A stretch of 35,956 nucleotides of DNA, from positions 1-35,956 of the forward strand of contig JAIDTT010000048.1 in assembly GCA_029060545.1 (NCBI GenBank), given 5' to 3'. This DNA is from Paramuribaculum sp. Its GTDB lineage: Bacteria > Bacteroidota > Bacteroidia > Bacteroidales > Muribaculaceae. Shown here piece by piece: positions 1,898-30,693 of this stretch (positions are counted from its first letter, which is position 1; each line of letters opens with the position of its first letter). Below the pieces are notes generated by a model, which was given only the letters and a program-made list of their open reading frames with translations, was not told where the DNA came from and did no database searches. The position numbers and the translations under genes were made by a program.

Positions 1898-2869
1898 TCA
1901 GGGGAGGGTGACGACGATCTTGCCGATGCGGGTGCGCTGCTCGGCAAGGGTGTGGGCATCTGGGATCTGATCGAAGGTGAAGCGGGCGCCTATAATTGGC
2001 CGGATGCGATAACGCTCGATAAGTGTCATCATTCCGTCGATCTGCTCCTGTGTGGGGCGGTTGCTGTAGAAGCCTGTGAGATATACGCCGGATGGTATCT
2101 CTTTGATCGGATCAAATTCTTTGAGGCCATATACACCGCCAAGCAGTCCGGTGTGGCACACGATACCATGCGTGGCTGTTACTTTCAGTGACGAGCGGAG
2201 GGTGGATGCGCCTATGAGTTCGAGCACTTTTGTGGCTCCGGCGGGATGACTGTCGAGAAACCGACGCACGAAGTCGTCGCCTTCTATCACAACATCGTCA
2301 GCTCCATACGTGCGTAGCAGCTCCGCTTTATGCTCACTCCGGGTCGTGTCGATGGCGCGGGCTCCGATGGCACGGGCGAGTTGGAGGGCGGCGAGCCCTA
2401 CCGTGGATGTGCCGCCGCGAATGAGCAGAGTATCGGCCGATGTGAGTTGAAGCGACAGAGTGAGTGAGCCGTAGGCTGTATAATAGGTCTCGGGAATGGC
2501 AGCAAGTTCCTCCCAATCGAGTGTGCTGTAGACAGGAAATACGTTGGCGGCAGGGAGCAGGGCGTATTCGGCATAACTGCCGTCGAAACTTCGCCCCATT
2601 CCGCCCATAAGCGCAATGACGCGCTGCCCCTTGACGAGCCGGCTATCGGACGGATCCACGACCTCACCTACACATTCGATACCGGGAATTATGGGCTTGC
2701 GGATATAAGGTTGCGCTACTTCAAACTGTCTCAGCAGTATCTCGGAGTGATTGATGCCGAAGGCGTGGACCTTGATGAGCACATGGCCGGGAGTGACCTC
2801 CGGAACGGGTACATCGGCGACGGTCATCTCATCGGCACGGCACGGGGCTGTGAGTACTATTGCTTTCAT
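1898..2869 (-). CDS. MDR-family (quinone oxidoreductase-like) NAD(P)H oxidoreductase
   Basis: This is a 323-residue medium-chain dehydrogenase/reductase. The N-terminal GroES-like fold has PGIECVGEV near 62-70, and a Rossmann domain follows with the dinucleotide-binding turn GGTSTVG at 152-158. At the usual catalytic-zinc position (GINHSE, 38-43) there is no Cys, so it looks like a zinc-independent NADPH:quinone reductase or enoyl-reductase type. The ATG at 2869 overlaps the stop of the radical SAM gene as ATGA; a longer reading from 2884 adds five unlikely residues. The overlap implies translational coupling, so it may reduce or oxidise the modified peptide. A general electrophile or quinone detoxification role, fitting the HxlR regulator nearby, is equally possible. 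It is last in the operon and reads into the hairpin at 1838-1875. Confidence 0.85.
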   Translation of the reverse strand: MKAIVLTAPCRADEMTVADVPVPEVTPGHVLIKVHAFGINHSEILLRQFEVAQPYIRKPIIPGIECVGEVVDPSDSRLVKGQRVIALMGGMGRSFDGSYAEYALLPAANVFPVYSTLDWEELAAIPETYYTAYGSLTLSLQLTSADTLLIRGGTSTVGLAALQLARAIGARAIDTTRSEHKAELLRTYGADDVVIEGDDFVRRFLDSHPAGATKVLELIGASTLRSSLKVTATHGIVCHTGLLGGVYGLKEFDPIKEIPSGVYLTGFYSNRPTQEQIDGMMTLIERYRIRPIIGARFTFDQIPDAHTLAEQRTRIGKIVVTLP

Positions 2870-3885
2870 ACTTTTTTCCAACATTGAGGATCAGGAGCGT
2901 AGAATGAGTGATGATATCCGAAGGATACTGCGGGGCATCCCCGGCAGAAGCGCATGAGTTCGCATCGGGAGCATTTTTCGAATTTCTCGAATTGGCGGTA
3001 GCGCTCCATTTCCGGGCCGGACCAGAGAGAGTGGAGCGGTGTGCGGAAGAGATTGCCTACCGTACTGTCAAACCGGCGGCAGGCCATTACATCGCCGTCG
3101 GGGAGTATGGTGAAGTGGCAGTCGCCGCAGTGGCAGCCGTCGTAGATAGTGTCGGCATCACTGTCGGGTGGTATGCGGAAGAGCCCTTTTTCATAGAGGA
3201 AGAGAGTCCACAGGTGATCCTTGAGGTTGAACGTAGTGCCGGAGTCCTTGTATTGCTCGAACTTGCGCCACATCGCGCCGAGAAAGTCGCGATACTCATC
3301 AGGAGATATGCAGGTCGACTTCTCATCGGAGGTGGGGCAGTATCGACCGAAAGCAAATACGCCGACCCCTTTCTTTACTACGAGGTCAACGATCTCAGGT
3401 ATCTCAGCTATATTGGTGCCGGATACGGTGGTCATCACGGCTACTCGCAGGTCTCCGCGGCGCAGTGTGTCGATTGCATTCAGGGTGGCGTCGAAGGAGC
3501 CGGGTCTGCGTATGGCGTCGTGTGTGTCGCGCATACCGTCGATCGACAGCTGATATTTCACGCATCCGTAGTCTTTAAGGCGTCGGCACACCTGATCGGT
3601 GATGTGAAAGGGATTGCCGAGTATGGTGAATGGAATATCGCGATCCTTGAGTAGCCCGAGTATAGTCCAGAAGTCGCGGTGCAGTATCGGGTCACCTCCG
3701 GTGATGTAGAAGTATGGACGCCTGGCAAGGCGGCTGCACATCTCTTCACATTGCCGGATGACTTCTTCGGCACGCGAAAGAGGCATTTCTATGAGCCGCG
3801 GATGGCCTTCGGAGAAGATGTAGCAATGGTTGCAGCGTTGGTCGCAGCTGTCGGTTATATGCCATTGAAAAGCGAAATATTCCAT
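2866..3885 (-). CDS. Radical SAM/SPASM peptide maturase, ACGX-system type
   Basis: This 339-residue protein has the radical SAM cluster motif CxxxCxxC at Cys14, Cys18 and Cys21, a GGDP motif at 63-66 for SAM binding, and a Cys-rich SPASM-type C-terminus (Cys251, 253, 256, 269, 305, 308, 314, 317, 335) that would hold auxiliary Fe-S clusters. SPASM enzymes typically form thioether or C-C cross-links in ribosomal peptides. The ATG at 3885 (MEYFAFQWHITDSC) puts the motif where the family expects it; the open frame extends upstream to 4113 but that part is the antisense of the precursor peptide. It lies 73 nt downstream of the 56-residue ACGS/ACGA peptide, and from memory it fits the TIGRFAM 'radical SAM/SPASM protein, ACGX system'. 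The product of this system is, to my knowledge, not chemically characterised. Confidence 0.88.
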   Translation of the reverse strand: MEYFAFQWHITDSCDQRCNHCYIFSEGHPRLIEMPLSRAEEVIRQCEEMCSRLARRPYFYITGGDPILHRDFWTILGLLKDRDIPFTILGNPFHITDQVCRRLKDYGCVKYQLSIDGMRDTHDAIRRPGSFDATLNAIDTLRRGDLRVAVMTTVSGTNIAEIPEIVDLVVKKGVGVFAFGRYCPTSDEKSTCISPDEYRDFLGAMWRKFEQYKDSGTTFNLKDHLWTLFLYEKGLFRIPPDSDADTIYDGCHCGDCHFTILPDGDVMACRRFDSTVGNLFRTPLHSLWSGPEMERYRQFEKFEKCSRCELMRFCRGCPAVSFGYHHSFYAPDPQCWKKV

Positions 3886-3902
3886 TGTAGGCTTGCGGAT
3901 TA

Positions 3903-3940
3903 ACGGCTCCGATACGCTTGCGGAGCGATATCGGAGCCGT
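3903..3940 (-). promoter_or_regulatory. Hairpin between precursor peptide and maturase
   Basis: ACGGCTCCGATA at 3903-3914 is perfectly complementary to TATCGGAGCCGT at 3929-3940, and CGCT at 3915-3918 pairs with AGCG at 3924-3927 inside it. It lies wholly between the peptide stop (3959) and maturase ATG (3885), 17 nt before that ATG. No T-run follows on the minus strand, so a processing or stabilising stem, or partial attenuator, is more likely than a full terminator. Confidence 0.75.
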
Positions 3941-3958
3941 GGTGAATAAGGTGAAGGT

Positions 3959-4129
3959 TTATTCTCCGGCGCCGCAGGCGGAGCCACAAGCGGCAGGCTT
4001 GGGTTCGGGCTTTTCGTCGCCGGCTCCACAAGCGGAGCCGCATGCTGCTGAAGGCTGTTCGATTTCGGAATTGGCGCACAGATAAGCCTGGGCGGTGTGA
4101 TTGATCGCACCATTGTTGTTGCGTTTCAT
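3959..4129 (-). CDS. ACGX-repeat RiPP-like precursor peptide (56 aa)
   Basis: A short gene whose product starts MKRNNNGAINHTAQAYLC and carries two identical decapeptide blocks, AACGSACGAG at 28-37 and 46-55, separated by an acidic/proline/lysine linker (DEKPEPKP). It ends with Glu56. Five Cys are present (18, 30, 34, 48, 52), four of them spaced CxxxC within the blocks. The ATG at 4129 lies about 33 nt downstream of a predicted start site from a well-formed promoter, and a SPASM radical SAM gene follows immediately. The repeats match my memory of the TIGRFAM 'ACGX-repeat peptide' targets, so the likely fate is radical-mediated modification at the Cys blocks, with residues 1-27 as leader. No signal peptide and no exporter are visible. 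Modification and activity are inference. Confidence 0.88.
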   Translation of the reverse strand: MKRNNNGAINHTAQAYLCANSEIEQPSAACGSACGAGDEKPEPKPAACGSACGAGE

Positions 4130-4169
4130 TGTAGTTTGGTTTTTATGTGGTTAGACAGATGTTTCGGGG

Positions 4170-4200
4170 CAAAAGTAGGGTATTGGGCGTTAATGTGCAA
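4170..4200 (-). promoter_or_regulatory. Promoter of the ACGX peptide operon
   Basis: On the minus strand, TTG (4200-4198), a 20-bp spacer and TACTTTTG (4177-4170) form a full Bacteroidetes promoter. Transcription would begin near 4162, giving about a 33-nt leader before the peptide ATG at 4129. Confidence 0.8.
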
Positions 4201-4204
4201 GTAG

Positions 4205-4216
4205 GTATAATTATAC
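4205..4216. promoter_or_regulatory. Candidate HxlR operator (12-bp perfect palindrome)
   Basis: GTATAATTATAC is a perfect palindrome five bases upstream of the -33 TTG of the ACGX operon and within the divergent region shared with HxlR-1. MarR/HxlR dimers bind such sites. Assignment to the neighbouring regulator is by position only. Confidence 0.45.
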
Positions 4217-4303
4217 GCCTTACTAACCTTTTTATCGCTTTTGTTGCTTACCAACGGGTTAGCGGATGCAAATTTTTTGAAAAAAATCTCACGCGTCTGA
4301 TTA

Positions 4304-4335
4304 TTTGCATAGCATATTGAAATAGAGTACCTTTG
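4304..4335 (+). promoter_or_regulatory. Promoter of HxlR-1, giving a very short leader
   Basis: TTTG (4304-4307), 20-bp spacer, TACCTTTG (4328-4335). A start about 7 nt downstream lands near 4342, only about 8-14 nt before the run of three ATG codons at 4350-4358, so the mRNA would be almost leaderless. Confidence 0.78.
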
Positions 4336-4349
4336 CCTGCGTAATACTG

Positions 4350-4724
4350 ATGATGATGAGAAAGAAAACGCAACTCAATTCGATAATCGAGATATGTCCG
4401 GTGCGCAATGTGATAGCGCGTTTCGGTAATAAGTGGGCGCTGCTTGTGATACTCGTGATCGGCGAGAATGATCCTATCCGCTATAACCAGCTCGGGAAGC
4501 TGATTCCGGATATATCGTCGAGGGTGCTGACATCGACGTTGCGTACGCTTGAGGCCGACGGGCTTGTGGAGCGTAAGCTGTATCAGGAGGTGCCTCCGCG
4601 GGTAGAGTATTCGCTTACCGCTACGGGGCGGTCGCTGGTACCTCTGATCGGACAACTTACCGAATGGGCTCAGGCGAATATGAAGACGATAATGGAGCAC
4701 CGCGAGGCAGCGGAACAGAATTAG
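4350..4724 (+). CDS. HxlR-family transcriptional regulator (HxlR-1)
   Basis: A 124-residue winged-helix regulator. The family hallmark CPVRNV is at residues 16-21, followed by the HxlR core (KWALLVI, RYNQLGKLIPDIS, LTSTLRTLEADGLV, PPRVEYSLT). A lone Cys at this N-terminal position is the redox or electrophile sensor in characterised relatives such as YodB and QorR; whether Cys16 does so here is inference. Three consecutive ATG codons make the exact start uncertain by six bases. It is divergent from the ACGX peptide operon, with the palindrome at 4205-4216 between them, so it probably controls that operon and perhaps itself. The YjbR-like gene follows after 64 bp and may be co-transcribed. It is clearly related to HxlR-2 at 5782. 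Confidence 0.92.
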   Translation: MMMRKKTQLNSIIEICPVRNVIARFGNKWALLVILVIGENDPIRYNQLGKLIPDISSRVLTSTLRTLEADGLVERKLYQEVPPRVEYSLTATGRSLVPLIGQLTEWAQANMKTIMEHREAAEQN

Positions 4725-4788
4725 CAGCAGTGAACTGCATGTCGGGTGAGCTGTTACTTTATAAGTATGTTATAACCGAATTGCGGCT

Positions 4789-5148
4789 ATGAATGTAGAA
4801 GATTTCAGGGAGTATTGCCTATCGCTGCCTCAGGTAAAAGAGAATGCACCGTGGACGGAGCCTCAGTATCAATGTCTTGTGACGTTTACCGTCGGGGGTA
4901 AGTGGTTTGCGCTGCTTGATATCGATAAAAAGTTTTGCGACCTCAAGGCATCCGCGGAGGTTATTGCCGAGATGCATGAGAGGTACGATGCCGCATTTCC
5001 GGCCTGGCACATGAACAAGTCGCATTGGCTTGGCGTGCGTCTGGAAGCTGATATGCCCGACGATGTGATGAAGGATCTGCTCAGGGAGGCATACGATCTG
5101 ATAGTGAAAAGTCTGCCTAAAAGCAAGCGTACAGAACTCGGCCTATAA
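4789..5148 (+). CDS. MmcQ/YjbR family protein
   Basis: A 119-residue cytoplasmic protein with the compact MmcQ/YjbR (former DUF419) fold signature: an N-terminal helix beginning MNVEDFREYCLSLP, the PWTEPQY segment, a beta core with GGKWFALLDI, and the HMNKSHWLGVRL motif at about 71-82 followed by two helices. Family members have a CyaY-like double-wing DNA-binding-type fold, but no defined function. Full length for the family. It lies 64 bp downstream of HxlR-1 on the same strand with no clear promoter of its own. It ends before the conserved hairpin at 5172-5208. Confidence 0.88.
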   Translation: MNVEDFREYCLSLPQVKENAPWTEPQYQCLVTFTVGGKWFALLDIDKKFCDLKASAEVIAEMHERYDAAFPAWHMNKSHWLGVRLEADMPDDVMKDLLREAYDLIVKSLPKSKRTELGL

Positions 5149-5171
5149 ACTGATACAAAGATAATCAACGG

Positions 5172-5208
5172 CAAAGGCCCGCTTCCTGCAATTGGAGGCG
5201 AGCCTTTG
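5172..5208. terminator. Bidirectional terminator-like hairpin, copy 2
   Basis: CAAAGGC at 5172-5178 pairs with GCCTTTG at 5202-5208, with the inner CGCTTCC and GGAGGCG forming the rest of the stem. It lies between the convergent YjbR and cupin genes. The flanking ACGG and the loop are near-identical to copy 1 at 1838-1875, so this is a repeated element, not an independent terminator. Confidence 0.75.
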
Positions 5209-5226
5209 TGATTGGAGGCGGGGGAA

Positions 5227-5637
5227 TCAGAGGAGGTTGGCGCGCTCGGTGATAGCGGCGTCCGTCATAGTATAACCGCCGAGACTTCCTTCCTTGGCCT
5301 GAATACAGATGTAGACGAGGGGCTCGGTGGATGTGCATTTGAGATTGCGGTCGCAATTGGTGGCTACGCGCACCACGGAGCCTTCGGCGATGTCAAATAC
5401 TTCGTCGTCGACCTGGAATCGGCCTGAGCCGGAGAGAATGATGTAGTTTTCCTCATTTTCCTTATGGCTGTGGAAGAAGGGGACTTCGGCTCCGGTTGGA
5501 AGAGTGCCGAATGAGATTTCGCAGGATGTGGCGCCGGTGGCGTCCTTTACAAACTGCTTGCCTTCGAATGTGGAGAGGGCGCCTACGGAGGCGTGCGCGA
5601 ATTTTTCGCTTTTGTGGAGTGTCTTGATTTCGCTCAT
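5227..5637 (-). CDS. Small cupin-domain protein
   Basis: A 136-residue single-domain cupin. Motif 1 is visible as PTGAEVPFFHSHKENEENY, with an HxH pair and downstream Glu for metal binding, followed by GSGRFQVDDEVFDIAEGSVVRV leading to the second motif region. Substrate is not predictable; small cupins of this kind often act on reactive small molecules. The ATG at 5637 (MSEIKTLHK) is chosen over the longer frame to 5685 because the predicted transcription start (about 5694) would leave no leader for the latter. It is divergent from HxlR-2, and a 7+7 palindrome overlaps the transcription start, suggesting repression by HxlR-2. Confidence 0.85.
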   Translation of the reverse strand: MSEIKTLHKSEKFAHASVGALSTFEGKQFVKDATGATSCEISFGTLPTGAEVPFFHSHKENEENYIILSGSGRFQVDDEVFDIAEGSVVRVATNCDRNLKCTSTEPLVYICIQAKEGSLGGYTMTDAAITERANLL

Positions 5638-5682
5638 ATTTTTTGTAATATTGATTTGTTGATTAACTTTGCGGTGGAAAGT

Positions 5683-5701
5683 CACTATCTAATTGATAGT
5701 G
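5683..5701. promoter_or_regulatory. Candidate HxlR-2 operator
   Basis: CACTATC-TAATT-GATAGTG, a perfect inverted repeat with 7-bp arms. It covers the predicted transcription start of the cupin and the -33 region of the candidate HxlR-2 promoter, so one bound dimer could block both. The ACTAT...ATAGT arms resemble my recollection of YodB-type sites. Confidence 0.65.
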
Positions 5702-5723
5702 CAAATATATATCCATTGATTTG
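5693..5723 (+). promoter_or_regulatory. Weak candidate promoter of HxlR-2
   Basis: TTG at 5693-5695, 20-bp spacer, TTGATTTG at 5716-5723, one mismatch from TAnnTTTG. It shares the palindrome with the divergent cupin promoter. Confidence 0.4.
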
Positions 5724-5732
5724 ATAAAACAA
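5702..5732 (-). promoter_or_regulatory. Promoter of the cupin gene
   Basis: On the minus strand, TTG (5732-5730), 20-bp spacer, TATATTTG (5709-5702). The start site would fall near 5694, inside the palindrome at 5683-5701. Confidence 0.8.
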
Positions 5733-5781
5733 GAAGTTACGCCGGTGAAAGCCGGTTACTGTCAGGTAAGTATTATTGAAA

Positions 5782-6126
5782 ATGAATAGATTGCAGCTGC
5801 AAGAAAATTTGAAAAAATATACGCGCATCGAAGATTGCCCGATCCGGAATGTGGTGGCACGCTTTTCGGGTAAGTGGTCAATGCTGGTGCTGTGTGTGTT
5901 GGCCGAAAATGAGAGCACACGTTTCAATGCCATCGGCCGGGCTATACCGGATATTTCGCCGAAGGTACTGTCGGCCACGCTGAAGTCGCTTGAGGATGAC
6001 GGGCTGATAGGGCGCAGAATATATGCTGAGATACCGCCGAGAGTAGAGTATTCGCTCACGGCCAAAGGGGAGTCGCTGATGCCGATTCTCTACAGCCTCA
6101 TCGCCTGGGCGGTGGAGAACAGATAG
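5782..6126 (+). CDS. HxlR-family transcriptional regulator (HxlR-2)
   Basis: A 114-residue winged-helix protein with the hallmark DCPIRNVVARF (Cys19) and the core KWSMLVLCVL, RFNAIGRAIPDISPKVLS, LKSLEDDGLI and PPRVEYSLT. It is a clear relative of HxlR-1, with the same lone N-terminal Cys that serves as thiol sensor in YodB/QorR-type regulators. The ATG at 5782 (MNRLQLQEN) is preferred to an in-frame TTG at 5776. It is divergent from the cupin with a shared palindromic operator, and convergent with the nitroreductase (12-bp gap). Autorepression plus control of the cupin is the simplest reading. Confidence 0.92.
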   Translation: MNRLQLQENLKKYTRIEDCPIRNVVARFSGKWSMLVLCVLAENESTRFNAIGRAIPDISPKVLSATLKSLEDDGLIGRRIYAEIPPRVEYSLTAKGESLMPILYSLIAWAVENR

Positions 6127-6138
6127 CGATATATGAGG

Positions 6139-6909
6139 CTACTGAAATTTTACGAGGGGTATCCACTTGGGGTGGGCGGGGGCGTCCTCGCACATCGATA
6201 GCTGGCCTTCGATTCCCTGCTCTTTGGCTGCGAGATAGAAGTGGCTCAGGCCGATACCGAGATCGAGGATCGATGCGGCGGATTTATTCTCGTAGTAGAA
6301 ATATACGGTGTCGCCGTCGACAAGTGCGCGCCACGGTTGGGAGTTGGTGGATGAAGGGGCGAGGCGCATCATTTCGAGCGGCTGATAATACTTGCTCGCC
6401 AGGTCGACGATAAACAGATCGGCCATCGGTTTGCGGCGTGCGCTGCCTACGGCTGCGCGCATCAGTCGCTCCTTCAGGCTCATTTTCTCGGTGGGATAGC
6501 CTACGGGCATTACTGCCTTGAGCGGGGTGTCCGGAGGAAATGCGCAGGCATTGGCGAAGGTAGTGCCTTTGAATGTGCCGGCTATCCAGCAGGTGCCGAG
6601 CCCCATGGATGCGGCCTTGAGCACTATTTGCTCCATCCGGAATCCGAGGGTAAGTTGGGATGCTTCGGAGCCGTCGGTTCCCATAAGAAAATACCATGAT
6701 GCTCCGTTGATTGTGCCGTAGGTGCTTGGCTTGAACGGCCCTTTGAGGTCGAATTTCTTCAATTCAATTGTCACCTTCCCTCCAAACGGCGACTCTGCCC
6801 CGGCTAATTCGGAGAGCAATATTTCGGCTTCCTTTTCGGTCATCTGTCGATGTATGTCGAATGAGCGTACGGAGCGGCGCTCCGCGATTATCCGGTCAAG
6901 ATCTTTCAT
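6139..6909 (-). CDS. Nitroreductase-family FMN oxidoreductase
   Basis: A 256-residue protein. The FMN-phosphate segment ERRSVRSF is at residues 10-17; AASMGLGTCWIAGTF and the repeated-half element RLAPSSTNSQPWR mark a nitroreductase fold. The single-chain layout with a second FMN-binding-like half resembles the 'putative TM1586-type nitroreductase' group, in which one polypeptide mimics the usual dimer. It probably reduces nitro, quinone or flavin substrates with NAD(P)H. The ATG at 6909 (MKDLDRIIAERR) is chosen over 6936 because the -7 box TATATTTG at 6941-6934 would put the start site near 6926. Gene context (HxlR, cupin, DsbA, MDR) fits a redox or electrophile response. Confidence 0.88.
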   Translation of the reverse strand: MKDLDRIIAERRSVRSFDIHRQMTEKEAEILLSELAGAESPFGGKVTIELKKFDLKGPFKPSTYGTINGASWYFLMGTDGSEASQLTLGFRMEQIVLKAASMGLGTCWIAGTFKGTTFANACAFPPDTPLKAVMPVGYPTEKMSLKERLMRAAVGSARRKPMADLFIVDLASKYYQPLEMMRLAPSSTNSQPWRALVDGDTVYFYYENKSAASILDLGIGLSHFYLAAKEQGIEGQLSMCEDAPAHPKWIPLVKFQ

Positions 6910-6933
6910 ATCCGTATGACTTTTTTGTGGTTG

Positions 6934-6941
6934 CAAATATA
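6934..6941 (-). promoter_or_regulatory. -7 element for the nitroreductase gene
   Basis: TATATTTG on the minus strand, about 25 bp before the chosen ATG. The -33 position holds only a poor CTG-like match. Confidence 0.6.
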
Positions 6942-7038
6942 GGATATTTTTTAATAACGACAGAAAAAACTGACCGGGTCAACATTTGTGGCTGTCCGGG
7001 CGTTGTATAGACAGAAACCAACTAAACCTATCTATATT

Positions 7039-7743
7039 ATGATGACATTGACTATATGGAGCGATTTCGCTTGCCCCTATTGCTACATCGGCGAACGCCG
7101 TCTGCAGAAAGCTATTGAAGTGATGGGTCTGACCGACGAGGTCCGGATCGACTATCGCGCTTACGAACTTGACCCCAATGCGCCGAAGGTGGTTACGGGT
7201 TCTACTCCCGAACGATTTGCGAGGAAGTATCGCCTGTCGCTCGAAGATGCCCGCAAGAAGGTCGACGAGATTTCAGCTCTTGGCCGAGAGATCGGCATCG
7301 ACTTCCGCTATGCCACCACTCAATATTCCAATACTCGCGATGCTCACCGCCTGATGAAGTTGGCCGAAGCGAAGTATGACCGCGCCACGGTGGAACGTCT
7401 CAACGAGGCTCTCTTCGCCGCATATTTTACCGAGAATCTTGTGCTGGCCGACCACGCCGTATTGCTCGACAAGGCAGTGTCGGTCGGGATGAACGCCGAT
7501 GATGTGAAGGCGGTGCTTGATAGCGATGAATATGCCGACGAGGTTCGTCTTGACGAGCGTGAGGCTGCGATGCGCGGTGTGCGCGGCGTGCCATACATAG
7601 TGTTTGGCGGTAACTTCGCGGTGCCGGGTGCTATGGAGGTCGACGGTTTCAAGATGGCGCTTGAGCGCGAGCTGCGCAATCAGAAGCAGGCCGAAGAGGC
7701 TCAAGATGTGCATTCTTGTGGTCCTGAAGGTTGTAAACTCTAA
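7039..7743 (+). CDS. DsbA-family (FrnE-like) thioredoxin-fold oxidoreductase
   Basis: A 234-residue cytoplasmic protein without a signal peptide. The active-site motif CPYC is at residues 12-15 (SDFACPYCYIGERRL), followed by the inserted helical domain typical of 2-hydroxychromene-2-carboxylate isomerase/FrnE relatives and the cis-Pro region VRGVPYIVFGG near 190-200. A second Cys pair ends the protein (CGPEGCKL), possibly a C-terminal redox or metal-binding tail. FrnE-like proteins act as disulfide oxidoreductases or isomerases in the cytoplasm. Two ATG codons in tandem (7039, 7042) make the start uncertain by one residue; a longer frame from 6988 is not supported. The metallo-beta-lactamase-fold gene follows after 12 nt, so they are probably co-transcribed. 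Confidence 0.88.
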   Translation: MMTLTIWSDFACPYCYIGERRLQKAIEVMGLTDEVRIDYRAYELDPNAPKVVTGSTPERFARKYRLSLEDARKKVDEISALGREIGIDFRYATTQYSNTRDAHRLMKLAEAKYDRATVERLNEALFAAYFTENLVLADHAVLLDKAVSVGMNADDVKAVLDSDEYADEVRLDEREAAMRGVRGVPYIVFGGNFAVPGAMEVDGFKMALERELRNQKQAEEAQDVHSCGPEGCKL

Positions 7744-16008: not shown

Positions 16009-16848
16009 TTATTTGTGGTAGTCGGTTTCGATTAGGTCTACTACGGAGGAGGGGACGAAGAGGGGGGCGTCGTCGGCGGTGTTACCGTCGGCCTTCACTA
16101 CCGTTATGTTACCTCCAAGTTGGGCATTGATCTGACCCATAGGATTGTCGAGGAAGGCGCGCTTGGCTTTGAGGTAATCGATTCGGTTGGTACGCTCGTA
16201 GCTGTCGGCAAGATATACCGGAGTGATCGGCTTGCGTGTCTGCTGTATGCCGGTAGCTACAAACCGATACTCGCCGCCCTCCGATTCGGCTTCGAGGATA
16301 AGTCCGAGCAGACGGTCGAATTTCCATGGACCGTTCATAATCGGTATTTCGGGGGTGAACCACACCGTCCAATGCCGGCCATGGAAGTCGGTAGTGGCCT
16401 TGAAGCATTCGTAGCCAAGGATTTCTTTGACGGAGTCGCCGATCTCCCATTCCCACCGAGGGACAGGCTCTTCATAGAAGTATTTGTCGAGTCCGGCATT
16501 GTCGTAGTAGATGTGCTTGTCTTCGTCGAGCGACTTCACGATATAGTATGTGCCATCCTTTGACGGCATATTATCCATATTACCGCTGAAGTAGGCATTG
16601 CGCGCCATCTCCTGATATTTGGCGCGTCCGTCGGGGGTGGAATTGAGGGAGTCGATATACTCGGTGCGGGGCGAGTAGAATTTGGACTGCGATTCGTTGG
16701 CCAACAGGATATACTGATTGGAGGGGCCGGCGGAGCCATCTCGCATATTGGGCATATAGGCCGTGTAGCTTACTTCGATTTCGGAGGTCTGAGCGGTTGT
16801 ACATACGGCTGTGATACCGACGAGTATGAGTGATAGTATCTTTTTCAT
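16009..16848 (-). CDS. GLPGLI family protein 1
   Basis: A 279-residue exported protein with signal peptide (MKKILSLILVGITAVCTTAQ). It shows the GLPGLI-family order: early EVSYTAYMPN strand, a KFYS plus Y(I/L)DSL segment, GYECFKATTDFHGRHWTVWFTPEIP, then the family signature as WKFDRLLGLILEAE, where the usual GLPGLI has drifted to RLLGLI. Function of the family is unknown; members are periplasmic or surface-exposed and often sit beside outer-membrane barrels. It is the last gene of the operon, 2 bp after GLPGLI 2. Confidence 0.88.
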   Translation of the reverse strand: MKKILSLILVGITAVCTTAQTSEIEVSYTAYMPNMRDGSAGPSNQYILLANESQSKFYSPRTEYIDSLNSTPDGRAKYQEMARNAYFSGNMDNMPSKDGTYYIVKSLDEDKHIYYDNAGLDKYFYEEPVPRWEWEIGDSVKEILGYECFKATTDFHGRHWTVWFTPEIPIMNGPWKFDRLLGLILEAESEGGEYRFVATGIQQTRKPITPVYLADSYERTNRIDYLKAKRAFLDNPMGQINAQLGGNITVVKADGNTADDAPLFVPSSVVDLIETDYHK

Positions 16849-16850
16849 AT

Positions 16851-17708
16851 TCAGTTTTTATAATCGGGTTCGATGCTATGCTTGGCAGGATTGTAGACCG
16901 GAGCGTCGATGGGGTTACCCTCATCGTCTTGATAGGTAAGAGTGGCATTACCGCCATTCTGCGCCTTGAATATGGCTTCGGCATTGTTGACGTGGTATTC
17001 GTGTTGTGCCTGAGCCTTTTTGCGATCCACACGCTCGTAGTCGGCAGGGGAGTAGATGGTGGTCATCTCACGGTCGGTCGATTCGAGGCCGGTGGCAGTG
17101 AAGGAGAAGGCTCCATCGCAAGTAGCCTTGAGTATCAGTCCGGGCAGACCGCGCAACTTCCACGGGCCGAAGCATACCGGTATCTCGGGAGTGAACCAGG
17201 CTTTCCAATGACGACCATGATAGTCGGTCTCAGCAAGGATACATTCGTAGCCAAGCATTGTGGCGGTGGAGTCGCTGATAATATTCCATTCGATTTCAGC
17301 CAGAGGCTCGGTGTAGAAACCGAGGTCGTCACCCCATTTCCCGTAGACGGTCAGGAGTGCGGCATCATTGTCGGTAAAAATATATGTGTAGACGGTCTTG
17401 GTCGGGCCTTTTCTGAGATCCCACGACATAGTGCCGTCAGGCTCGATGGTGAGACACGATTGCTTGAGTATCTCCATATATTGAGCCTTTCCTTCGGGGG
17501 TGGACTTGAGGGAGTCGATCCAGAGGCTCAGGCTGTTGAAGTACTTCGATCGGTCGTGCGACGCGAGCAGGGTCATAGGCGTGGTCTGTATCTTGTCGCG
17601 TGTGGTGGGATAGGTGTAGTCGTAGCTTACCGCGATGTCGGCTTTCTCCTGTGCGAAGGCCAGAAGCACTATCAGGAAGAAGATGAGGAATGTGATGATT
17701 CGGTTCAT
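16851..17708 (-). CDS. GLPGLI family protein 2
   Basis: A 285-residue exported protein: signal peptide to about residue 19 (ending LLAFAQ), DIAVSYDYTYP strand, DRSKYFNSLSLWIDSL, GYECILAETDYHGRHWKAWFTPEIPVCFGPWK, and the signature LRGLPGLILKAT. Clear paralogue of the other two GLPGLI genes in this operon. The ATG overlaps the stop of the barrel gene as ATGA, so its translation is coupled to that of the outer-membrane protein. This implies a stoichiometric partner, for example a periplasmic or surface companion of the barrel. Confidence 0.9.
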   Translation of the reverse strand: MNRIITFLIFFLIVLLAFAQEKADIAVSYDYTYPTTRDKIQTTPMTLLASHDRSKYFNSLSLWIDSLKSTPEGKAQYMEILKQSCLTIEPDGTMSWDLRKGPTKTVYTYIFTDNDAALLTVYGKWGDDLGFYTEPLAEIEWNIISDSTATMLGYECILAETDYHGRHWKAWFTPEIPVCFGPWKLRGLPGLILKATCDGAFSFTATGLESTDREMTTIYSPADYERVDRKKAQAQHEYHVNNAEAIFKAQNGGNATLTYQDDEGNPIDAPVYNPAKHSIEPDYKN

Positions 17709-20302
17709 TTTTTGAAAGAGATTGTGAGTAACAGTTCACGCCCGCGGAGCCAGCGAAGGCTCTCGAAGGAGTTGAGTTGATTGTATGTCTTGTAATAATA
17801 TGTGCGGTGATTGAAGAGATTACTCAGCGATGCCGTAAGACCGATCTGTTTGGTTAGTGAGTAGGATATTTCTGCATCGACGAGAAGCACATGCTTGTAG
17901 CTGTCGGCAGCGATCTCGTTGAGATAATGCTCGCCGTTGATTTTGCAGTGCCATTTCTTATATGGTATGATACTGAGGGTCATGCTGTTTTCCAGACTTC
18001 CGAGCCATGATGCCGATGATCCGCTGATGGCGAGTCGGCTTGCCGAGTAGCTGATGCTGTAGTCGAACGACAGCCATCGTAGGGGCGCGCCGTTGATCTT
18101 CGCACCTGCTGACCACGTGGAGCTGACGGAGTTTACTGCCTGAGATTCCGAAAGAAGATGCGATTCGGAGCGGTTAAATGAACCGTTGATGTTGGCGCTA
18201 CCGCGCATAAAGTCGAGTGTCTTGCCTACATTGGCCGTGGCTAAGAAAGTGGAGGCTTTGCTTCGGGCAGGTGAGTAGGAGTAGAGCACGTAGTCACCAT
18301 AGAGTTGTTGGGCGAGTGTGTAAGGACGCTGGTTCCACGATTGTAATACTACGGCGTTGGCGAATACGCCACGGCGCGTATGCTTGAACGAGAAATTGGC
18401 CGACAGATTCTGAGAGGTGTTATTGTAGAAGTCGTCGACACCACGGCGGAATGAACGGTAGTTGGTCATCACATATCCGGGCTGGATCATGCTTAGATCC
18501 ATAGGTTTGCGTCCGGAGCCTCCGCGCAAGCCCATAGATATGCGGTTGTTTGGTTTCCAGTTGACACTGAGCGACGGTGAGAAATATGCTTCGCTGCGGT
18601 TGGCCAGTGCTTTGTCGAAGGTATAGTGAGCGAAACTCAGCGGAAGGTTAAGTGTGAAGTTGACCCGACGTAGCCAATACTCCATTTTGGGAGTAGCGTA
18701 GATGGAGAAATAGTTGGTACTTAATACGTTGGTGAAAGATTCGGCGCTCTCGGGACCGTCGGTAAGATCCGGCAGACCGGTAAGGACGGTATTGAGTGAG
18801 CGGATATAACCTTTCACTCCGCCTTCGAGCCCTACGGTGATGCCATTGAATGTGAAGGAGTAGCCGATCGTCTCATCGGTATAGAAGGCATGGTCTCGCA
18901 CACGCTGACGGCTTCGCTCGGAGCTGATGATGGTGGAGAGAGTCTGAGGCATCGACTCCCACTCGTTTTTACTCAGTATGGTGATGATATGCTTTCCCCG
19001 GATACGCTGTATGAGTTTGAAGTCATTGGAGATAAAGTAGTCGGGGAGTGAAGCTGACTGGTCGTTGGTGAGCGAGCCGGTGACATCGAGCGTCACGTTA
19101 TCCCAATTCAGATTGGTCTTTAAGGTATTGTTGATAAACGAAGTCTTTTGATTGAGTTCGTATATCACTTTGGCCGACAGGGCGTGGGAGCGGTCTACAC
19201 CGCTACGGTTTTCGGTGACTACACGGTTAGCCTGAGAAAGAAAATAAGTGGTGATATTGGATGCGTCGGATGCCACGCGATTATATGTGTAGTCGATCTG
19301 GGCTTTTAGTTCACCGCGGCCGAATTTCCACAGATCGTTGGTGGAGATGAGTGCGGAGCGGTTGAAAAGCGTGCGCTCTTTATTGAGGCTCGGCACACCG
19401 GGGAGCGATACGCCTACATAACGGGTGAGATCAGTACCTCGGCGTGAGGCGAAAAAGTCGTTGGCCTGAGTTGAAAGATCATCGCCGGTATTGTTGGTCT
19501 TTATGGTCGTGATATTCTGGAATCCGGTCATAGCGGCCATGGCAAACAGCTCCTCTTTCCAGAGCCCTCCCGCAGGCTGATGGGAGTATCCGCCGGCAGC
19601 ACTCCCGCTGACGCTCCATGTGGCTTTCGCTTTGTCTTTTAGGCGGAGATTGATGGCCGCCTGATCGGAAAAGGCTACCCCCGAAAGTACCTGCATAGGC
19701 TGATGATTCTCCATCACCTCGACAGAGCCGACGTCGGCGTGGCTAATGCCATTGGTGGCGATGCCGTACTTGCCACCGAGCAGGTCGGAGCCTTCGATAT
19801 AGAAGCGGTTGATATCCTTACCCTGATATTGTACCTTACCCGAGGATTCCACGCTGATGCCGGGCATACGGCCGAGCACGTCGCCGATCGAGCCGTCCTG
19901 ACTTTGGGCGAAACTCGCTACATCGTAGGTGATCGTATCGCCCTGCTCGCGGATGCGGTCGGCTTTCACGGTCACCTCCTTGAGGATTGTGGCGCCCGGC
20001 ACCATCTCGATAGTAGCCGGGAGGGTGATGCTGTCGAGCGGGAGCGACTGCTTGGCGAAGCTGATCATCGTCACCTCCAGTCGGCAGCTATCGGTCGTCG
20101 GGATGCTGAGTGAAAAGGAGCCGTCGGCTTTCGAAGTGGTGTATTTCTTGATTTTGCCGTCGGGACCTTTGATTATGACGGATGCTCCGGCCAGTGGCTC
20201 ACGGCTATCCTTTTCGATCACAGAGCCTGTGACGCTCACCTGTGCGATAGCACAAAGCGGACAGCTCATCAGGAAAATTAGGTATGTGATAATCCGTATC
20301 AT
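17705..20302 (-). CDS. TonB-dependent-receptor-like outer-membrane beta-barrel protein
   Basis: An 865-residue protein. A signal peptide (MIRIITYLIFLMSCPLCAIAQ) is followed by a CarboxypepD_reg-like domain (VSVTGSVIEKDSREPLAGAS, to about 105), a plug-like domain (LKEVTVKADRIREQGDTITY ... IGDVLGRMPGISV ... INRFYIEGSDLLGGKYGIA) and a long barrel of the 'outer membrane beta-barrel family' type ending in RELLLTISFKK, without the aromatic C-terminus of classic porins. No evident TonB box. No SusD partner is present; GLPGLI genes take its place. The ATG at 20302 overlaps the stop of GLPGLI 3 (ATGA), and its own stop overlaps GLPGLI 2. A longer frame to 20434 is rejected. Substrate unknown. Confidence 0.88.
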   Translation of the reverse strand: MIRIITYLIFLMSCPLCAIAQVSVTGSVIEKDSREPLAGASVIIKGPDGKIKKYTTSKADGSFSLSIPTTDSCRLEVTMISFAKQSLPLDSITLPATIEMVPGATILKEVTVKADRIREQGDTITYDVASFAQSQDGSIGDVLGRMPGISVESSGKVQYQGKDINRFYIEGSDLLGGKYGIATNGISHADVGSVEVMENHQPMQVLSGVAFSDQAAINLRLKDKAKATWSVSGSAAGGYSHQPAGGLWKEELFAMAAMTGFQNITTIKTNNTGDDLSTQANDFFASRRGTDLTRYVGVSLPGVPSLNKERTLFNRSALISTNDLWKFGRGELKAQIDYTYNRVASDASNITTYFLSQANRVVTENRSGVDRSHALSAKVIYELNQKTSFINNTLKTNLNWDNVTLDVTGSLTNDQSASLPDYFISNDFKLIQRIRGKHIITILSKNEWESMPQTLSTIISSERSRQRVRDHAFYTDETIGYSFTFNGITVGLEGGVKGYIRSLNTVLTGLPDLTDGPESAESFTNVLSTNYFSIYATPKMEYWLRRVNFTLNLPLSFAHYTFDKALANRSEAYFSPSLSVNWKPNNRISMGLRGGSGRKPMDLSMIQPGYVMTNYRSFRRGVDDFYNNTSQNLSANFSFKHTRRGVFANAVVLQSWNQRPYTLAQQLYGDYVLYSYSPARSKASTFLATANVGKTLDFMRGSANINGSFNRSESHLLSESQAVNSVSSTWSAGAKINGAPLRWLSFDYSISYSASRLAISGSSASWLGSLENSMTLSIIPYKKWHCKINGEHYLNEIAADSYKHVLLVDAEISYSLTKQIGLTASLSNLFNHRTYYYKTYNQLNSFESLRWLRGRELLLTISFKK

Positions 20303-21165
20303 AAATCGTGAGGGTAGTCGGTCTCCTCTTTGTCGTGGTGCGTGATGCTTTTGGATTCCTGTGGCGCGGTGGAGGAAGATACGCCATACATAGCGCGGAT
20401 ATTTGCCGAAGAGTCGGTGTTGGTGTAGTGCCACCAGTTGTTGAAAAATTGGTCGCGCGTCACGTTGGTGACACCTCGCTTCTCCCGATGAATCAGGTAG
20501 CCTACGTCAGGCCGATCGGATTGCATAAGGCCGCAGGCGATGAAATGGTATTCGCCCGTGTCATCTCCTGCTTCGAGTATCAGTCCGGGTAGTCCGCATA
20601 GCTTCCAGGGGCCGTCGTGGAATGGTATCTCTGGTGCAAACCATGCGGTCCATCTCCTACCTCTATAATGGGTGGTAGCCTTGAAGCACTGATAGCCAAG
20701 AATCTCTTCGGTCTCTTCACACATCTCCCATTCGGGTTGCTCCCAATCTTCGGTGTATCGCCAGTTAGTAAGATCGAAATACGAAGTTTCGGTCAGTTTC
20801 CCCGCCGGATAGTTTTTGTATATGGTGCTCCAGTAGCGGCCGCTACGCTGCAGGGTGGTGCGGTCGTGTTCGATAGGATCTTTATGAAAAGAAGCCGCTT
20901 CCATCTGCCAGTAAAGGTCGGGGGCGCAGAACATAAGAGAGTCCCGATAGTAGTATGGCACCGAGCAGAAGCGCGACATCGAAGGCCCGATGCGTAGCAT
21001 AGTCTCCTCCGTGAAGTATCTTGAGGAGCGCATAGTGGTGTCCGTCACCTGAGTGCGCGTATATCGTACTTCGAGCAGCGTAGGCTCGGCATCGCGCAGC
21101 CAATTATCAGCCCAGGCCTGAGTGGAACAGATAGTCAGTATAATATATGTAACGATATCCTTCAT
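20299..21165 (-). CDS. GLPGLI family protein 3
   Basis: A 288-residue exported protein with signal peptide ending near TQAWA (residue 18). It has LEVRYTRTQVTDTT, the GYQCFKATTHYRGRRWTAWFAPEIP block and the perfect signature WKLCGLPGLILEAG. First gene of the operon; its stop overlaps the ATG of the barrel gene. The ATG at 21165 (MKDIVTYIILT) is chosen because it starts the signal peptide and lies after the -7 box TATTTTTG at 21194-21187; the frame extends to 21189. The C-terminus (ESKSITHHDKEETDYPHD) is hydrophilic. Role unknown. Confidence 0.88.
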   Translation of the reverse strand: MKDIVTYIILTICSTQAWADNWLRDAEPTLLEVRYTRTQVTDTTMRSSRYFTEETMLRIGPSMSRFCSVPYYYRDSLMFCAPDLYWQMEAASFHKDPIEHDRTTLQRSGRYWSTIYKNYPAGKLTETSYFDLTNWRYTEDWEQPEWEMCEETEEILGYQCFKATTHYRGRRWTAWFAPEIPFHDGPWKLCGLPGLILEAGDDTGEYHFIACGLMQSDRPDVGYLIHREKRGVTNVTRDQFFNNWWHYTNTDSSANIRAMYGVSSSTAPQESKSITHHDKEETDYPHDL

Positions 21166-21186
21166 GTCGGAGTGAGTAGTCGGGTG

Positions 21187-21194
21187 CAAAAATA
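21187..21194 (-). promoter_or_regulatory. -7 element for the GLPGLI/barrel operon
   Basis: TATTTTTG on the minus strand fits TAnnTTTG. The nearest TTG lies 23 bp upstream, longer than the 20 bp seen elsewhere in this window. Leader would be about 15 nt. Confidence 0.5.
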
Positions 21195-25103: not shown

Positions 25104-25215
25104 CACCCTGAAATATTGCACATTACTTGACGTTCAGAATTTGGATTGTAATTTTGTATGTGATTGGGTTATGGTGCGCTAAATTTTATTGACTCGTACA
25201 TCATATTCTATACTT

Positions 25216-25794
25216 ATGAAACATTTGTTATTGGTTGTACTGACTATACTCGGCATTACAGGTTCGCTGCGTGCCCAGAATGTAGCAGTGAAGACCAACT
25301 TGCTTTACGATGCCACAGCCACCATCAATCTTGGTGCGGAAGTACTTTTGGCTCCGAAGTGGTCGCTCGATGTCTCCGGCAACCTCAATGCGTGGCGTGT
25401 AAATGACCATAGCTGGAAGCATTGGCTGTTGCAGCCTGAGGCGCGTTATTGGTTCTGTGACCATTTTTCCGGTCATTTTTTAGGCGCACATTTGCTCGGT
25501 GGTCAGTATAATCTCGGCAATCTTTCCGGCCTTCCCGATTTCCTCGGCACAAACTTCAGCCTGTTGAAAGATACTCGTGTACAGGGTTGGTTTGTTGGTG
25601 CCGGTGTGGCATACGGCTATAGCTGGATTCTCGGCAAGCATTGGAATATTGAGGCTGAGGTCGGGTTCGGTTGGGCATATACTCGCTTTGATCGTTTCCC
25701 ATGTACCGAATGCGGGTCCAAAATCGAGAAAGACAAGCCTCACCATTATGTCGGACCTACCAAGGCAGCCTTGAATCTGGTGTACGTGTTTTGA
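25216..25794 (+). CDS. DUF3575 outer-membrane protein, first gene of the fimbrial operon
   Basis: A 192-residue protein with a signal peptide (MKHLLLVVLTILGITGSLRAQ) and the DUF3575 pattern: VAVKTNLLYDATATINLGAEVLL, PEARYWFCDHFSGHFLGAH, a Gly-rich GWFVGAGVAYGYSWILGKHWNIEAEVGFG and a C-terminal strand ALNLVYVF ending in Phe. It should form a small outer-membrane beta-barrel. DUF3575 proteins regularly precede DUF3868/OmpA and fimbrillin genes in Bacteroidales, as here. The ATG at 25216 starts the signal peptide. Exact role in fimbrial assembly is unknown. Confidence 0.9.
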   Translation: MKHLLLVVLTILGITGSLRAQNVAVKTNLLYDATATINLGAEVLLAPKWSLDVSGNLNAWRVNDHSWKHWLLQPEARYWFCDHFSGHFLGAHLLGGQYNLGNLSGLPDFLGTNFSLLKDTRVQGWFVGAGVAYGYSWILGKHWNIEAEVGFGWAYTRFDRFPCTECGSKIEKDKPHHYVGPTKAALNLVYVF

Positions 25795-25856
25795 TGTCAT
25801 TAGTCACCTTTGATAATCTAATCTCTATTCCGAATCCATTTACTTCTGTTGATATA

Positions 25857-27338: not shown

Positions 27339-27366
27339 CAATAATTTTTTTATCAATCACACATTT

Positions 27367-29547: not shown

Positions 29548-29560
29548 CACACTATTCCCG

Positions 29561-29580
29561 GCACTAAGAGACTTTAGTGC
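29561..29580 (+). promoter_or_regulatory. Small hairpin after the major fimbrillin gene
   Basis: GCACTAA (29561-29567) pairs perfectly with TTAGTGC (29574-29580) around a 6-nt loop, 13 bp after the stop. It may protect the 3' end of a fimbrillin-terminated transcript. Confidence 0.55.
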
Positions 29581-29593
29581 ACTTCCAAAATAA

Positions 29594-29621
29594 CCCCGGA
29601 GGGAAATCCCTCCCTCCGGGG
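29594..29621 (+). terminator. Intra-operon terminator after the major fimbrillin
   Basis: CCCCGGAGGGA (29594-29604) and TCCCTCCGGGG (29611-29621) form a perfect 11-bp stem around a 6-nt loop, followed by TATTTTAA. It is a strong intrinsic-terminator candidate placed between the major subunit and its anchor/tip genes, so the latter may be expressed by read-through. Confidence 0.8.
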
Positions 29622-29643
29622 TATTTTAACCCTTATCACTTTT

Positions 29644-30693
29644 ATGCTTCCCAACATTTTCCGCAACATATTACGCTTGATTCCTACGGCATTGGCCGTT
29701 GGTCTGACAATGACAGGTTGCTCTTCGTTTGTGTACGATGATCTACCTGAATGTCCCGCGCAACTCAATGTGAAGTTTCAGTTCAACTACACTCTTGATC
29801 GCGGCGAGGCTTTTGCCGCACAGGTTCACAGTGTCAATGTGTGGGCATTTGATCAGGCCGGAAATTTCGTCTGGACAGGCTCGGCCTCCGGCGAAATACT
29901 GACCGATCCTGATTTCAAGCTGGAAACTCCGCTCGGAGCCGGTACTTATGACTTCGTGGCATGGTGCGGACTTGAGGGCAACGATGATTTCTCTCTTGCC
30001 ACATACACACCGGCAAGTATGCGAGAGCTCGAAATGAAGCTTAATACTATAGAAAAAGACGGATTGAACGTAAGTTCGTCGCATTTCAAGTCCTTGTTCC
30101 ACGGTATGAAATTAAGTGTCGAGCACAAAGTAAATCCTACTGCTCCTTCGATTACTACTGTAACTATACCCTTGATTAAGGACACCAACGACATCGCAGT
30201 GATGCTCGTAAATGAAGATGGTACAGCTTTAAAAGAAAGTGATTTTACTGTATCATTCACCTACGCCGACTCATGGCTGGCGTGGAACAACGCAGTCCGG
30301 GACGACAGCCCCGCTGTAACCTATACGCCGTGGAGTATACTCTACGGTGAGACAACAAAGGCGCGCGCCGCAGGCGACTCGCCTGACTCGCCTGTGCGCT
30401 CCTCACTCCTCTTCGAAATGTCGGTGAGCCGCCTTATGGTCGATGGCGATGCGTATCTCGATATAGTGCGCAATACCGATGGTAAGCGCATAATCCATAT
30501 TCCCCTTATCGACTATTTCATATATGCCAAAGGTAACCGTTTCGACCAATACTCTGATCAGGAGTATCTCGATCGTCGTAGCGATTACTCGGCATTATTC
30601 TTTATTGATAATAATTTGGGGTGGTATACTGCTGCCGGCATATATATTTGCGGTTGGGCGGTGGTGCCTCCGCAGTCCGAACCTGTTTACTGA
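29644..30693 (+). CDS. Mfa2/FimB-type fimbrial anchor lipoprotein
   Basis: A 349-residue lipoprotein: signal with lipobox MTGC (Cys26), then CPAQLNVKFQFNYT and VNVWAFDQAGNFVW, the characteristic start of Mfa2/FimB-type subunits, with a C-terminal GWAVVPPQSEPVY. Anchors of this type fix the fimbria to the cell and limit its length. Located right after the intra-operon terminator, 96 bp after the major fimbrillin. The ATG at 29644 starts the signal. Confidence 0.88.
   Translation: MLPNIFRNILRLIPTALAVGLTMTGCSSFVYDDLPECPAQLNVKFQFNYTLDRGEAFAAQVHSVNVWAFDQAGNFVWTGSASGEILTDPDFKLETPLGAGTYDFVAWCGLEGNDDFSLATYTPASMRELEMKLNTIEKDGLNVSSSHFKSLFHGMKLSVEHKVNPTAPSITTVTIPLIKDTNDIAVMLVNEDGTALKESDFTVSFTYADSWLAWNNAVRDDSPAVTYTPWSILYGETTKARAAGDSPDSPVRSSLLFEMSVSRLMVDGDAYLDIVRNTDGKRIIHIPLIDYFIYAKGNRFDQYSDQEYLDRRSDYSALFFIDNNLGWYTAAGIYICGWAVVPPQSEPVY

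Follow-up and report, generated by a model that had tools for sequence, protein, structure and literature searches.

The window studied here, the whole 35,956-nucleotide stretch of contig JAIDTT010000048.1 from a Paramuribaculum sp., carries an ACGX-repeat peptide and its radical SAM maturase, a pair of the ribosomally synthesized and post-translationally modified peptide (RiPP) type. Three genes follow one another on the minus strand: a 56-residue acgA-type precursor peptide (3959-4129), an acgM-type radical SAM/SPASM maturase (2866-3885, 339 residues from the Met at 3885) and an MDR-family, quinone oxidoreductase-like reductase (1898-2884), whose gene overlaps that of the maturase by 19 nt. 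The peptide, MKRNNNGAINHTAQAYLCANSEIEQPSAACGSACGAGDEKPEPKPAACGSACGAGE, has an HTAQ motif in its leader and, as the first-pass annotation had stated, two identical AACGSACGAG blocks and five Cys; no signal peptide was seen by eye. The maturase likewise contains the two features noted for it, a CxxxCxxC motif (CDQRCNHC) and nine Cys from residue 251 onward, within Pfam Radical_SAM and SPASM domains. An alternative 415-residue frame for this gene overlaps the peptide gene and is not needed. The third gene also lies inside the interval 1898-4200 treated by the first-pass annotation but was absent from its interpretation; its product has Pfam ADH_N and ADH_zinc_N domains and reaches 189.9 bits against TIGR02824, below the cut-off of 296.8.

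Family membership, as proposed in the first-pass annotation, was borne out by profile searches: the peptide scores 41.8 bits against TIGR04341 (target_ACGX; NCBIfam whole-protein score, curated cut-off 28) and the maturase 563.7 bits against TIGR04340 (rSAM_ACGX; curated cut-off 400). Since both proteins pass the NCBI cut-offs, the pair adds a member to the family already named acgA/acgM. RefSeq annotates a homologue of the peptide as acgA, 'ACGX-repeat peptide', and the view that such peptides go unannotated as too short for gene calling was thus wrong in general. The AlphaFold model of the maturase (mean pLDDT, the predicted local distance difference test score, 75.7; below 50 across residues 299-339) gave SkfB, TigE and BlsE as its first Foldseek matches; this predicted structure confirms a radical SAM fold resembling SPASM-type maturases and adds nothing further.

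To describe the family around the window, the best 80 of 155 loci were combined with it (maturases 58-80% identical to the window's), which by record titles represent Bacteroidota, Bacillota (mostly Lachnospiraceae) and Methanobrevibacter; many of these 81 loci are closely related, not independent samples. In 76 of the 81, window counted, an ACGX peptide frame lies close to the radical SAM gene; among the misses, L020, L043 and L079 have less than 50 nt upstream, the frame of L078 lies 9.5 kb off, and L081 has none. The window peptide stands upstream of its maturase on the same strand, which is the ACGX gene order, and relatives with upstream DNA keep the precursor-then-maturase order, at times with an intervening gene. 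Among 16 related 57-residue peptides the median ratio of non-synonymous to synonymous substitution rates (dN/dS) was 0.07, from 89 usable of 120 pairs and with synonymous sites near saturation, and the window peptide compared with each of the 16 gave dN of 0.06-0.17 with dS above 1 or saturated. The peptide frame is under purifying selection, and the lack of conservation in relatives that the first-pass annotation had named as grounds for giving up its proposal was not observed.

The genes of the 81 loci were clustered, and profiles of the recurrent families were searched in all frames. By Pfam, representatives of the recurrent clusters were HxlR, ADH_N/ADH_zinc_N, Nitroreductase, PNPOx_N with 4Fe-4S, Macro and Cupin; a Sir2-type representative had no Pfam match and is named after its RefSeq annotation. 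Of the 75 loci offering 700 nt or more, 69 have a co-directional MDR, nitroreductase or PNPOx gene directly downstream; of the 71 with at least 1.5 kb, 54 have a divergent HxlR gene within 2 kb upstream. Where there is room on both sides (59 loci), any such reductase occurs in 56 and reductase plus HxlR in 46. The searched neighbour families were found in 0 of 28 non-ACGX SPASM loci of relatives, with flanks of up to 1.5 kb. The MDR reductase of the window thus belongs to a recurrent partner family of ACGX loci, and overall the ACGX genes are recurrently associated with oxidoreductases of five Pfam families.

The same arrangement appeared in two further sets, one of the best 30 of 39 Lachnospiraceae matches and one of all 20 methanogen matches, from which L114 and L115, already in the first set, were removed. 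Counting loci with room, the reductase is present in 27 of 28 (from 29 Lachnospiraceae loci) and 15 of 18 (from 19 methanogen loci), and the divergent HxlR in 23 of 28 and 9 of 13, respectively. The sets partly overlap the first one, because some methanogen loci share peptides with it (those of L156 and L157 are identical to those of L066 and L064). Of the three methanogen loci counted as lacking the reductase (L168, L169 and L172), the first two, the same as L175 and L176 read wider, have flavodoxin-like genes adjoining or near the maturase, a call made by Pfam (FMN_red) for the one tested and by eye for the others. Over 34 tips of a maturase tree with an assigned partner, the first downstream partner changes at least nine times; what is kept therefore seems to be a type of function and not a particular gene.

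In the Roseburia locus, the RefSeq order is helix-turn-helix protein, acgA, acgM, nitroreductase, 4Fe-4S protein, ADP-ribose hydrolase and Sir2. A Sir2-type and macrodomain gene pair was observed near ACGX genes in L036, L037, L038, L042, L051, L056, L062, L079, L081 and L207, and the respective clusters comprise 13 and 10 loci; the pair suggests that ADP-ribosylation is tied to the same stress response.

In one Lachnospiraceae locus (L138/L173), the ACGX repeats form the C-terminus of a 249-residue protein that begins with a Flavin_Reduct domain (47.3 bits), in frame. The last 51 residues of the fusion match TIGR04341 at 33.7 bits, above the cut-off of 28. The fusion gene is internal to a contig of 26.5 kb and has a divergent HxlR gene on one side and the maturase gene on the other, the latter preceded by one small open reading frame (ORF). 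This arrangement argues that the repeats can act intracellularly, attached to a redox enzyme. An intracellular role, one of two options left by the first-pass annotation, is accordingly supported and extended by the HxlR/oxidoreductase context and this flavin-reductase fusion.

Divergent from the window operon, an HxlR/DUF24-type regulator is encoded at 4350-4724 on the plus strand (Pfam HxlR PF01638, 97.4 bits), its start 220 nt from the peptide gene. With its HxlR domain and conserved N-terminal Cys, in the sequence CPVR, it has the features of HxlR/DUF24 thiol sensors. HxlR genes are scarce, three being present in the window's own genome (two of them in the window) and 16 over 21 genomes. 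Among 100 HxlR proteins near ACGX genes, 96 have a Cys within 20 residues before the first KW; three of the remainder have one by eye in a DRW variant, and the last is a fragment. According to the parts of the sources consulted, an N-terminal Cys is general in the family and is the electrophile reaction site of YodB and HxlR (PMC8063818, PMC7835342), YodB being a sensor of quinones and diamide with a preference for TACT and AGTA at a distance of about 7 bp (PMC8063818). Formaldehyde sensing through a Cys11-Lys13 bridge, described for HxlR in the excerpted PMC7835342, is unsupported for the window protein, in which CPVR offers no Lys two residues on.

The intergenic region contains a candidate operator at 4205-4229, made up of the palindrome GTATAATTATAC (4205-4216) and TAACCT (4224-4229) and recognized from motif counts. 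AGGTTA/TAACCT occurs in 38 of 50 HxlR-peptide regions, as compared with 6.6 in shuffles and 16 of 116 other intergenic regions of 140-230 nt from the same loci; by group, it was found in 20 of 26 Muribaculaceae-like, 16 of 19 other Bacteroidota, 0 of 3 Bacillota and 2 of 2 archaeal regions. Six of 56 regions were excluded from these counts, L029 and L030 for a misplaced HxlR start and L057-L060 for a gene between. A general palindrome search of intergenic regions gave mixed results, the k-mer count being clearer. In some loci a full dyad, AGGTTACTA-N10-TAGTAACCT, stands directly upstream of the peptide promoter, with all 18 positions matching in L014 and 17 of 18 in L013. A candidate promoter of the peptide operon (TTG, 20 nt, TACTTTTG; 4170-4200, minus strand) has both elements conserved among 23 aligned related regions, and another for the HxlR gene (TTTG, 20 nt, TACCTTTG; 4304-4335, plus strand) was picked out by eye; both follow what we take to be the Bacteroidota promoter consensus. 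Direct HxlR control of the ACGX operon is likely but inferred from these sequence patterns.

Comparison with named maturases places AcgM beside SbtM. SbtM is the second-best NCBIfam model for three ACGX maturases (178, 208 and 188 bits; next model 122-133), and in reverse three SbtM proteins match ACGX second, at 147-157 bits (next 81-87). The window maturase itself scores 178.2 bits against SbtM TIGR04082, whose cut-off is 350. The PapB model NF047865 gave 69.9 and 73.4 bits for two ACGX relatives (cut-off 340) and was not among the 25 models listed for the window maturase. Judged by these profile scores, the nearest named relative is the thiooxazole-forming SbtM, not the thioether maturase PapB. 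A tree of 43 of 127 ACGX maturases (less than 82% identity; 9 of the 43 without assigned partner) recovered ACGX as one clade with a Shimodaira-Hasegawa-like approximate likelihood ratio test (SH-aLRT) value of 96; in a second tree, 8 long-branch rows were excluded.

The core cysteines were counted in 74 peptides (72 distinct) of the 81 loci, five loci having no assigned peptide and L052 and L077 being excluded for Ns; at least two leader CG (L027, L060) are counted as core, and L064, L066 and L072 are truncated peptides. The 375 core Cys have Gly at +1 in 374 cases, Ala, Ser or Gly at -1 in 370, and Ser, Ala, Thr or Val at +2 in 372, with a variable distance between units; constant surroundings with variable distance point to a modification read unit by unit. 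A second Cys at +4 follows 140 of the 375 and is missing from the other 235, which discards cross-linking of CxxxC pairs as a family rule. The repeated thioether cross-links suggested from the CxxxC spacing of the window blocks are therefore not favoured, the pair spacing being variable and SbtM the closest named maturase.

What SbtM acts on was sought in its own loci. A search for Cys-rich small ORFs gave no clear precursor in them, and a comparison of small ORFs between loci found, in four SbtM loci, a shared upstream precursor with solitary [KR]C[AG]G motifs (GKKCAGM, GRKCGGL, GRRCGGI) and no acid at +4. These Bacteroidota loci (L116-L119) encode precursors of 93-122 residues with a hydrophobic N-terminus, starting at 1037-1124 on the SbtM strand; the one tested scored 14.3 bits against the SbtA model (cut-off 30.5) and is weakly SbtA-like. 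The thiooxazole chemistry of SbtM is described in parts of PMC12668002 and PMC12538549 and is also indicated by the NCBIfam name. Captophorins, for their part, are products of MNIO enzymes that carry 5-thiooxazoles, with EGKCG repeats in several; each modified Cys is lighter by 4 Da and still reactive towards iodoacetamide, and the SbtM product shares their absorbance at about 305 nm (available sections of PMC12668002, PMC12538549 and PMC12452194).

The presence of the system is patchy. An ACGX maturase above the cut-off was found in 2 of 61 genomes (the window's own counted). Sampling the family to which one Lachnospiraceae carrier belongs gave 36 carriers among 299 genomes, and the genus of a methanogen carrier gave 17 among 67. 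Four plasmid records also encode it, namely a Methanosphaera plasmid (two versions), a Subdoligranulum plasmid and a Roseburia plasmid; HxlR, peptide, maturase and reductases are present in 3 of the 3 distinct plasmid loci. Horizontal spread would be the natural reading of this distribution. The Methanosphaera plasmid maturase (L208, 4995-6019) is split in its record into adjoining radical SAM and SPASM pieces that are annotated separately. In the methanogen locus L176, a divergent small peptide (4804-5025, plus strand) without Pfam match has a KIAQ leader and, in place of ACG repeats, SCCIDTT and PCGS; by its sequence it is perhaps a variant substrate.

We infer the HxlR control, chemistry, location and function of the ACGX system as follows. 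The N-terminal Cys of the HxlR protein would be the sensor of thiol-reactive stress (from electrophiles, quinones, disulfide stress or perhaps metal), upon which the operon would be made. AcgM would bind the leader, which bears an [ST]AQ motif in most Bacteroidota ACGX peptides, and would modify each [A/S]-Cys-Gly-[S/A/T] unit singly, probably like SbtM, to a 5-thiooxazole that keeps reactive sulfur. The finished repeat peptide would stay intracellular and could serve as a soft-nucleophile, redox or metal buffer together with the adjoining flavin or NAD(P)H reductase. We give a probability of roughly 0.45 to this reading, in which ACGX is a cytoplasmic, HxlR-controlled thiol/electrophile-stress peptide with singly modified ACG cysteines, probably 5-thiooxazoles, and an anaerobic counterpart of the captophorins. 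A bolder form, tentative and rather doubtful, would see ACGX peptides as cytosolic poly-5-thiooxazole chains that an SbtM-like radical SAM enzyme assembles without oxygen, the strict anaerobe's equivalent of the MNIO-made captophorins, and as an HxlR-switched, reactive-sulfur redox/electrophile device that sits beside flavin reductases, once as the tail of one, and is shared between bacteria and methanogens by horizontal transfer, sometimes on plasmids. If AcgM does form thiooxazoles, two unrelated enzyme classes, one thought to need O2 and one anaerobic, would have been recruited for the same reactive-sulfur peptide.

Several observations weigh against the cytoplasmic thiol-stress reading. 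The flavin-reductase fusion is one case, in 1 of 299 genomes (E up to 1e-50), the other 29 matches stopping before the tail. Seventeen of 71 loci have no divergent HxlR within 2 kb, and six of 75 have no reductase directly downstream; of these six, L057, L060 and L076 have it upstream, L073 further down, and L067 and L074 have none within 4 kb. HxlR and reductase genes often adjoin each other without any RiPP, and since such neighbours occur alone, the peptide could be carried along in the stimulon while doing something else. Clear operators are confined to some Muribaculaceae-type loci, AGGTTA is found in none of the three Bacillota regions, and the window's own dyad is weak (13 of 18 positions), with the palindrome separate from it. 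On the maturase side, ACGX and SbtM form two distinct families (the score of 178 bits falls short of the 350-bit cut-off), and the tree joins them without firm support (SH-aLRT 81-88, outgroups from Bacteroidota only). The methanogen peptide L069 has no TIGR04341 match up to E 0.1, and its membership therefore rests on maturase and repeats. Lastly, Asp or Glu stands at exactly +4 from 173 of the 235 unpaired core Cys, which the PapB thioether model predicts and the thiooxazole model does not.

This last pattern is the main support for a ranthipeptide, in which AcgM would link Cys to the Asp or Glu four residues on by PapB-like thioethers within the same stress-regulon context. PapB forms Cys-Asp/Glu thioethers in six CX3D/E motifs of PapA and tolerates Cys-Xn-Asp with n from 0 to 6 (as given in part of PMC9413430), and counting either +3 or +4 raises the acids to 210 of 235; the methanogen peptide tested has ACGSD units with the acid at +3. 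The remaining 25 unpaired Cys have no acid at either position, 140 Cys have another Cys at +4 and no acid there, and in the window peptide Cys-X3-Asp/Glu accounts for 2 of the 4 core Cys, the last block having two Cys and one acid. With the PapB model at 70 and 73 of 340 bits for two ACGX maturases, far behind SbtM, and unlisted for the window enzyme, we favour an SbtM-like outcome over the Cys-X3-Asp/Glu thioether by about two to one and regard the ranthipeptide as less likely but a serious rival. Modified repeats might also chelate metal, as in captophorins and bufferins, giving a cytosolic metal (copper) buffer whose thiol-stress context would reflect metal-induced thiol stress. The repeated Cys-Gly units and SbtM-like maturase would suit such a buffer, and captophorin 5-thiooxazoles, with EGKCG repeats in several, bind copper and are tied to oxidative or metal stress (in the portions seen of PMC12668002, PMC12538549 and PMC12452194). 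Permease-like (heavy-metal-type domain in one member) and ArsM-like methyltransferase clusters, seen by eye in four loci each, lie several kb off. Among clusters in at least five loci (three without Pfam match), however, neither a metal regulator nor a nearby metal transporter occurs, the sole transport-type cluster being an HlyD/CusB-like adaptor in five loci at a median of 7.6 kb; we judge a dedicated metal buffer quite unlikely.

A role as a peptide-derived redox cofactor, with short modified units cut out and used by neighbouring reductases in the way of mycofactocin or pyrroloquinoline quinone (PQQ), would agree with the repeated cores separated by K/P/E spacers and with the recurrent oxidoreductases of five Pfam families. 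The latter are unrelated, which makes one common cofactor less likely, no peptidase occurs among the Pfam-named recurrent neighbour clusters, and the fusion keeps the repeats joined to a flavin reductase; the cofactor is thus improbable. Still less can be said for an ordinary antimicrobial or signalling RiPP secreted through a shared exporter, the other option of the first-pass annotation. A small leader-bearing precursor with a SPASM maturase is the usual sactipeptide/ranthipeptide layout, an ABC-transporter-like cluster was seen by eye about 5 kb off in four loci, and an MFS gene lies near the Roseburia acgA. The first-pass statement that the window holds no exporter or dedicated protease held up, in that Pfam detected no exporter or leader peptidase among 32 window ORFs (six, the peptide included, without Pfam match), and none recurs close by in the loci. 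Because close exporter, leader peptidase and signal peptide are lacking and the neighbours are stress-type reductases next to a stress-type regulator, and with the repeats once fused to a reductase, we consider secretion highly improbable.

No description of an ACGX product or role was found among the listed matches from the open-licence literature, in agreement with the earlier remark that the product is uncharacterised, and the portion consulted of a survey of Bacteroidales RiPP clusters (PMC10352776) contains nothing on HxlR. The family name acgA/acgM was already known; new are the HxlR context, the swapping reductases, the fusion and the SbtM kinship. With the regulator, reductases and fusion, what had been a name alone becomes a claim open to testing, that of a gut-anaerobe RiPP working intracellularly in thiol/electrophile stress.

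Elsewhere in the window, genes from 1898 to 7743 encode the MDR reductase, radical SAM maturase, peptide, HxlR, YjbR, a cupin, a second HxlR, a nitroreductase and a DsbA-like protein, a compact redox/electrophile-type island opened by the ACGX operon. Between the cupin and second HxlR genes, a 7-bp inverted repeat, CACTATC-TAATT-GATAGTG (5683-5701), was seen by eye and is possibly that HxlR's own operator. Further along, 16009-21189 contains three related Porph_ging/PNGase_F-II_N-like proteins around a 909-residue CarboxypepD_reg protein, and 25189-35478 a fimbrial-type cluster with DUF3575, DUF3868, Fimbrillin_C, Mfa2 and DUF4906 proteins.

Set beside known systems, the window pair is a true, ordinary member of the ACGX family (TIGR04341/TIGR04340), both genes being adjacent, in the same order and without structural difference. 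The HxlR/YodB (DUF24) regulons share the divergent HxlR with N-terminal Cys beside a reductase gene; the window differs by the added RiPP pair and by half-sites that resemble TACT/AGTA at a spacing unlike the approximately 7 bp of YodB (from the seen part of PMC8063818). Freyrasin and the other PapB ranthipeptides are similar in their repeated Cys, often with Asp or Glu four residues on, whereas the window maturase falls outside the PapB family by score. The SbtA/SbtM thio(seleno)oxazole system (TIGR04081/TIGR04082) is closer, with mutually nearest named maturases and, in four SbtM loci, precursors in which a single Cys is followed by two small residues. It differs in that the window maturase scores 178 bits against 350, its match starting at SbtM model position 198 with the N-terminal part absent, and in that the window precursor has an unlike leader without a hydrophobic N-terminus. 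With captophorins (bufferins, oxazolin, fontiphorin), the parallels described in parts of PMC12668002, PMC12452194 and PMC12538549 are Cys-Gly repeats in several, multiple modified Cys per chain and a connection with oxidative or metal stress. The precursors of bufferin and oxazolin bear Sec signal peptides, whereas no export signal was seen by eye in the window peptide. Captophorins are made by MNIO (DUF692) enzymes, for which none of the 32 window ORFs scanned gave a Pfam match; those enzymes are thought to use O2, whereas the window has a radical SAM enzyme.

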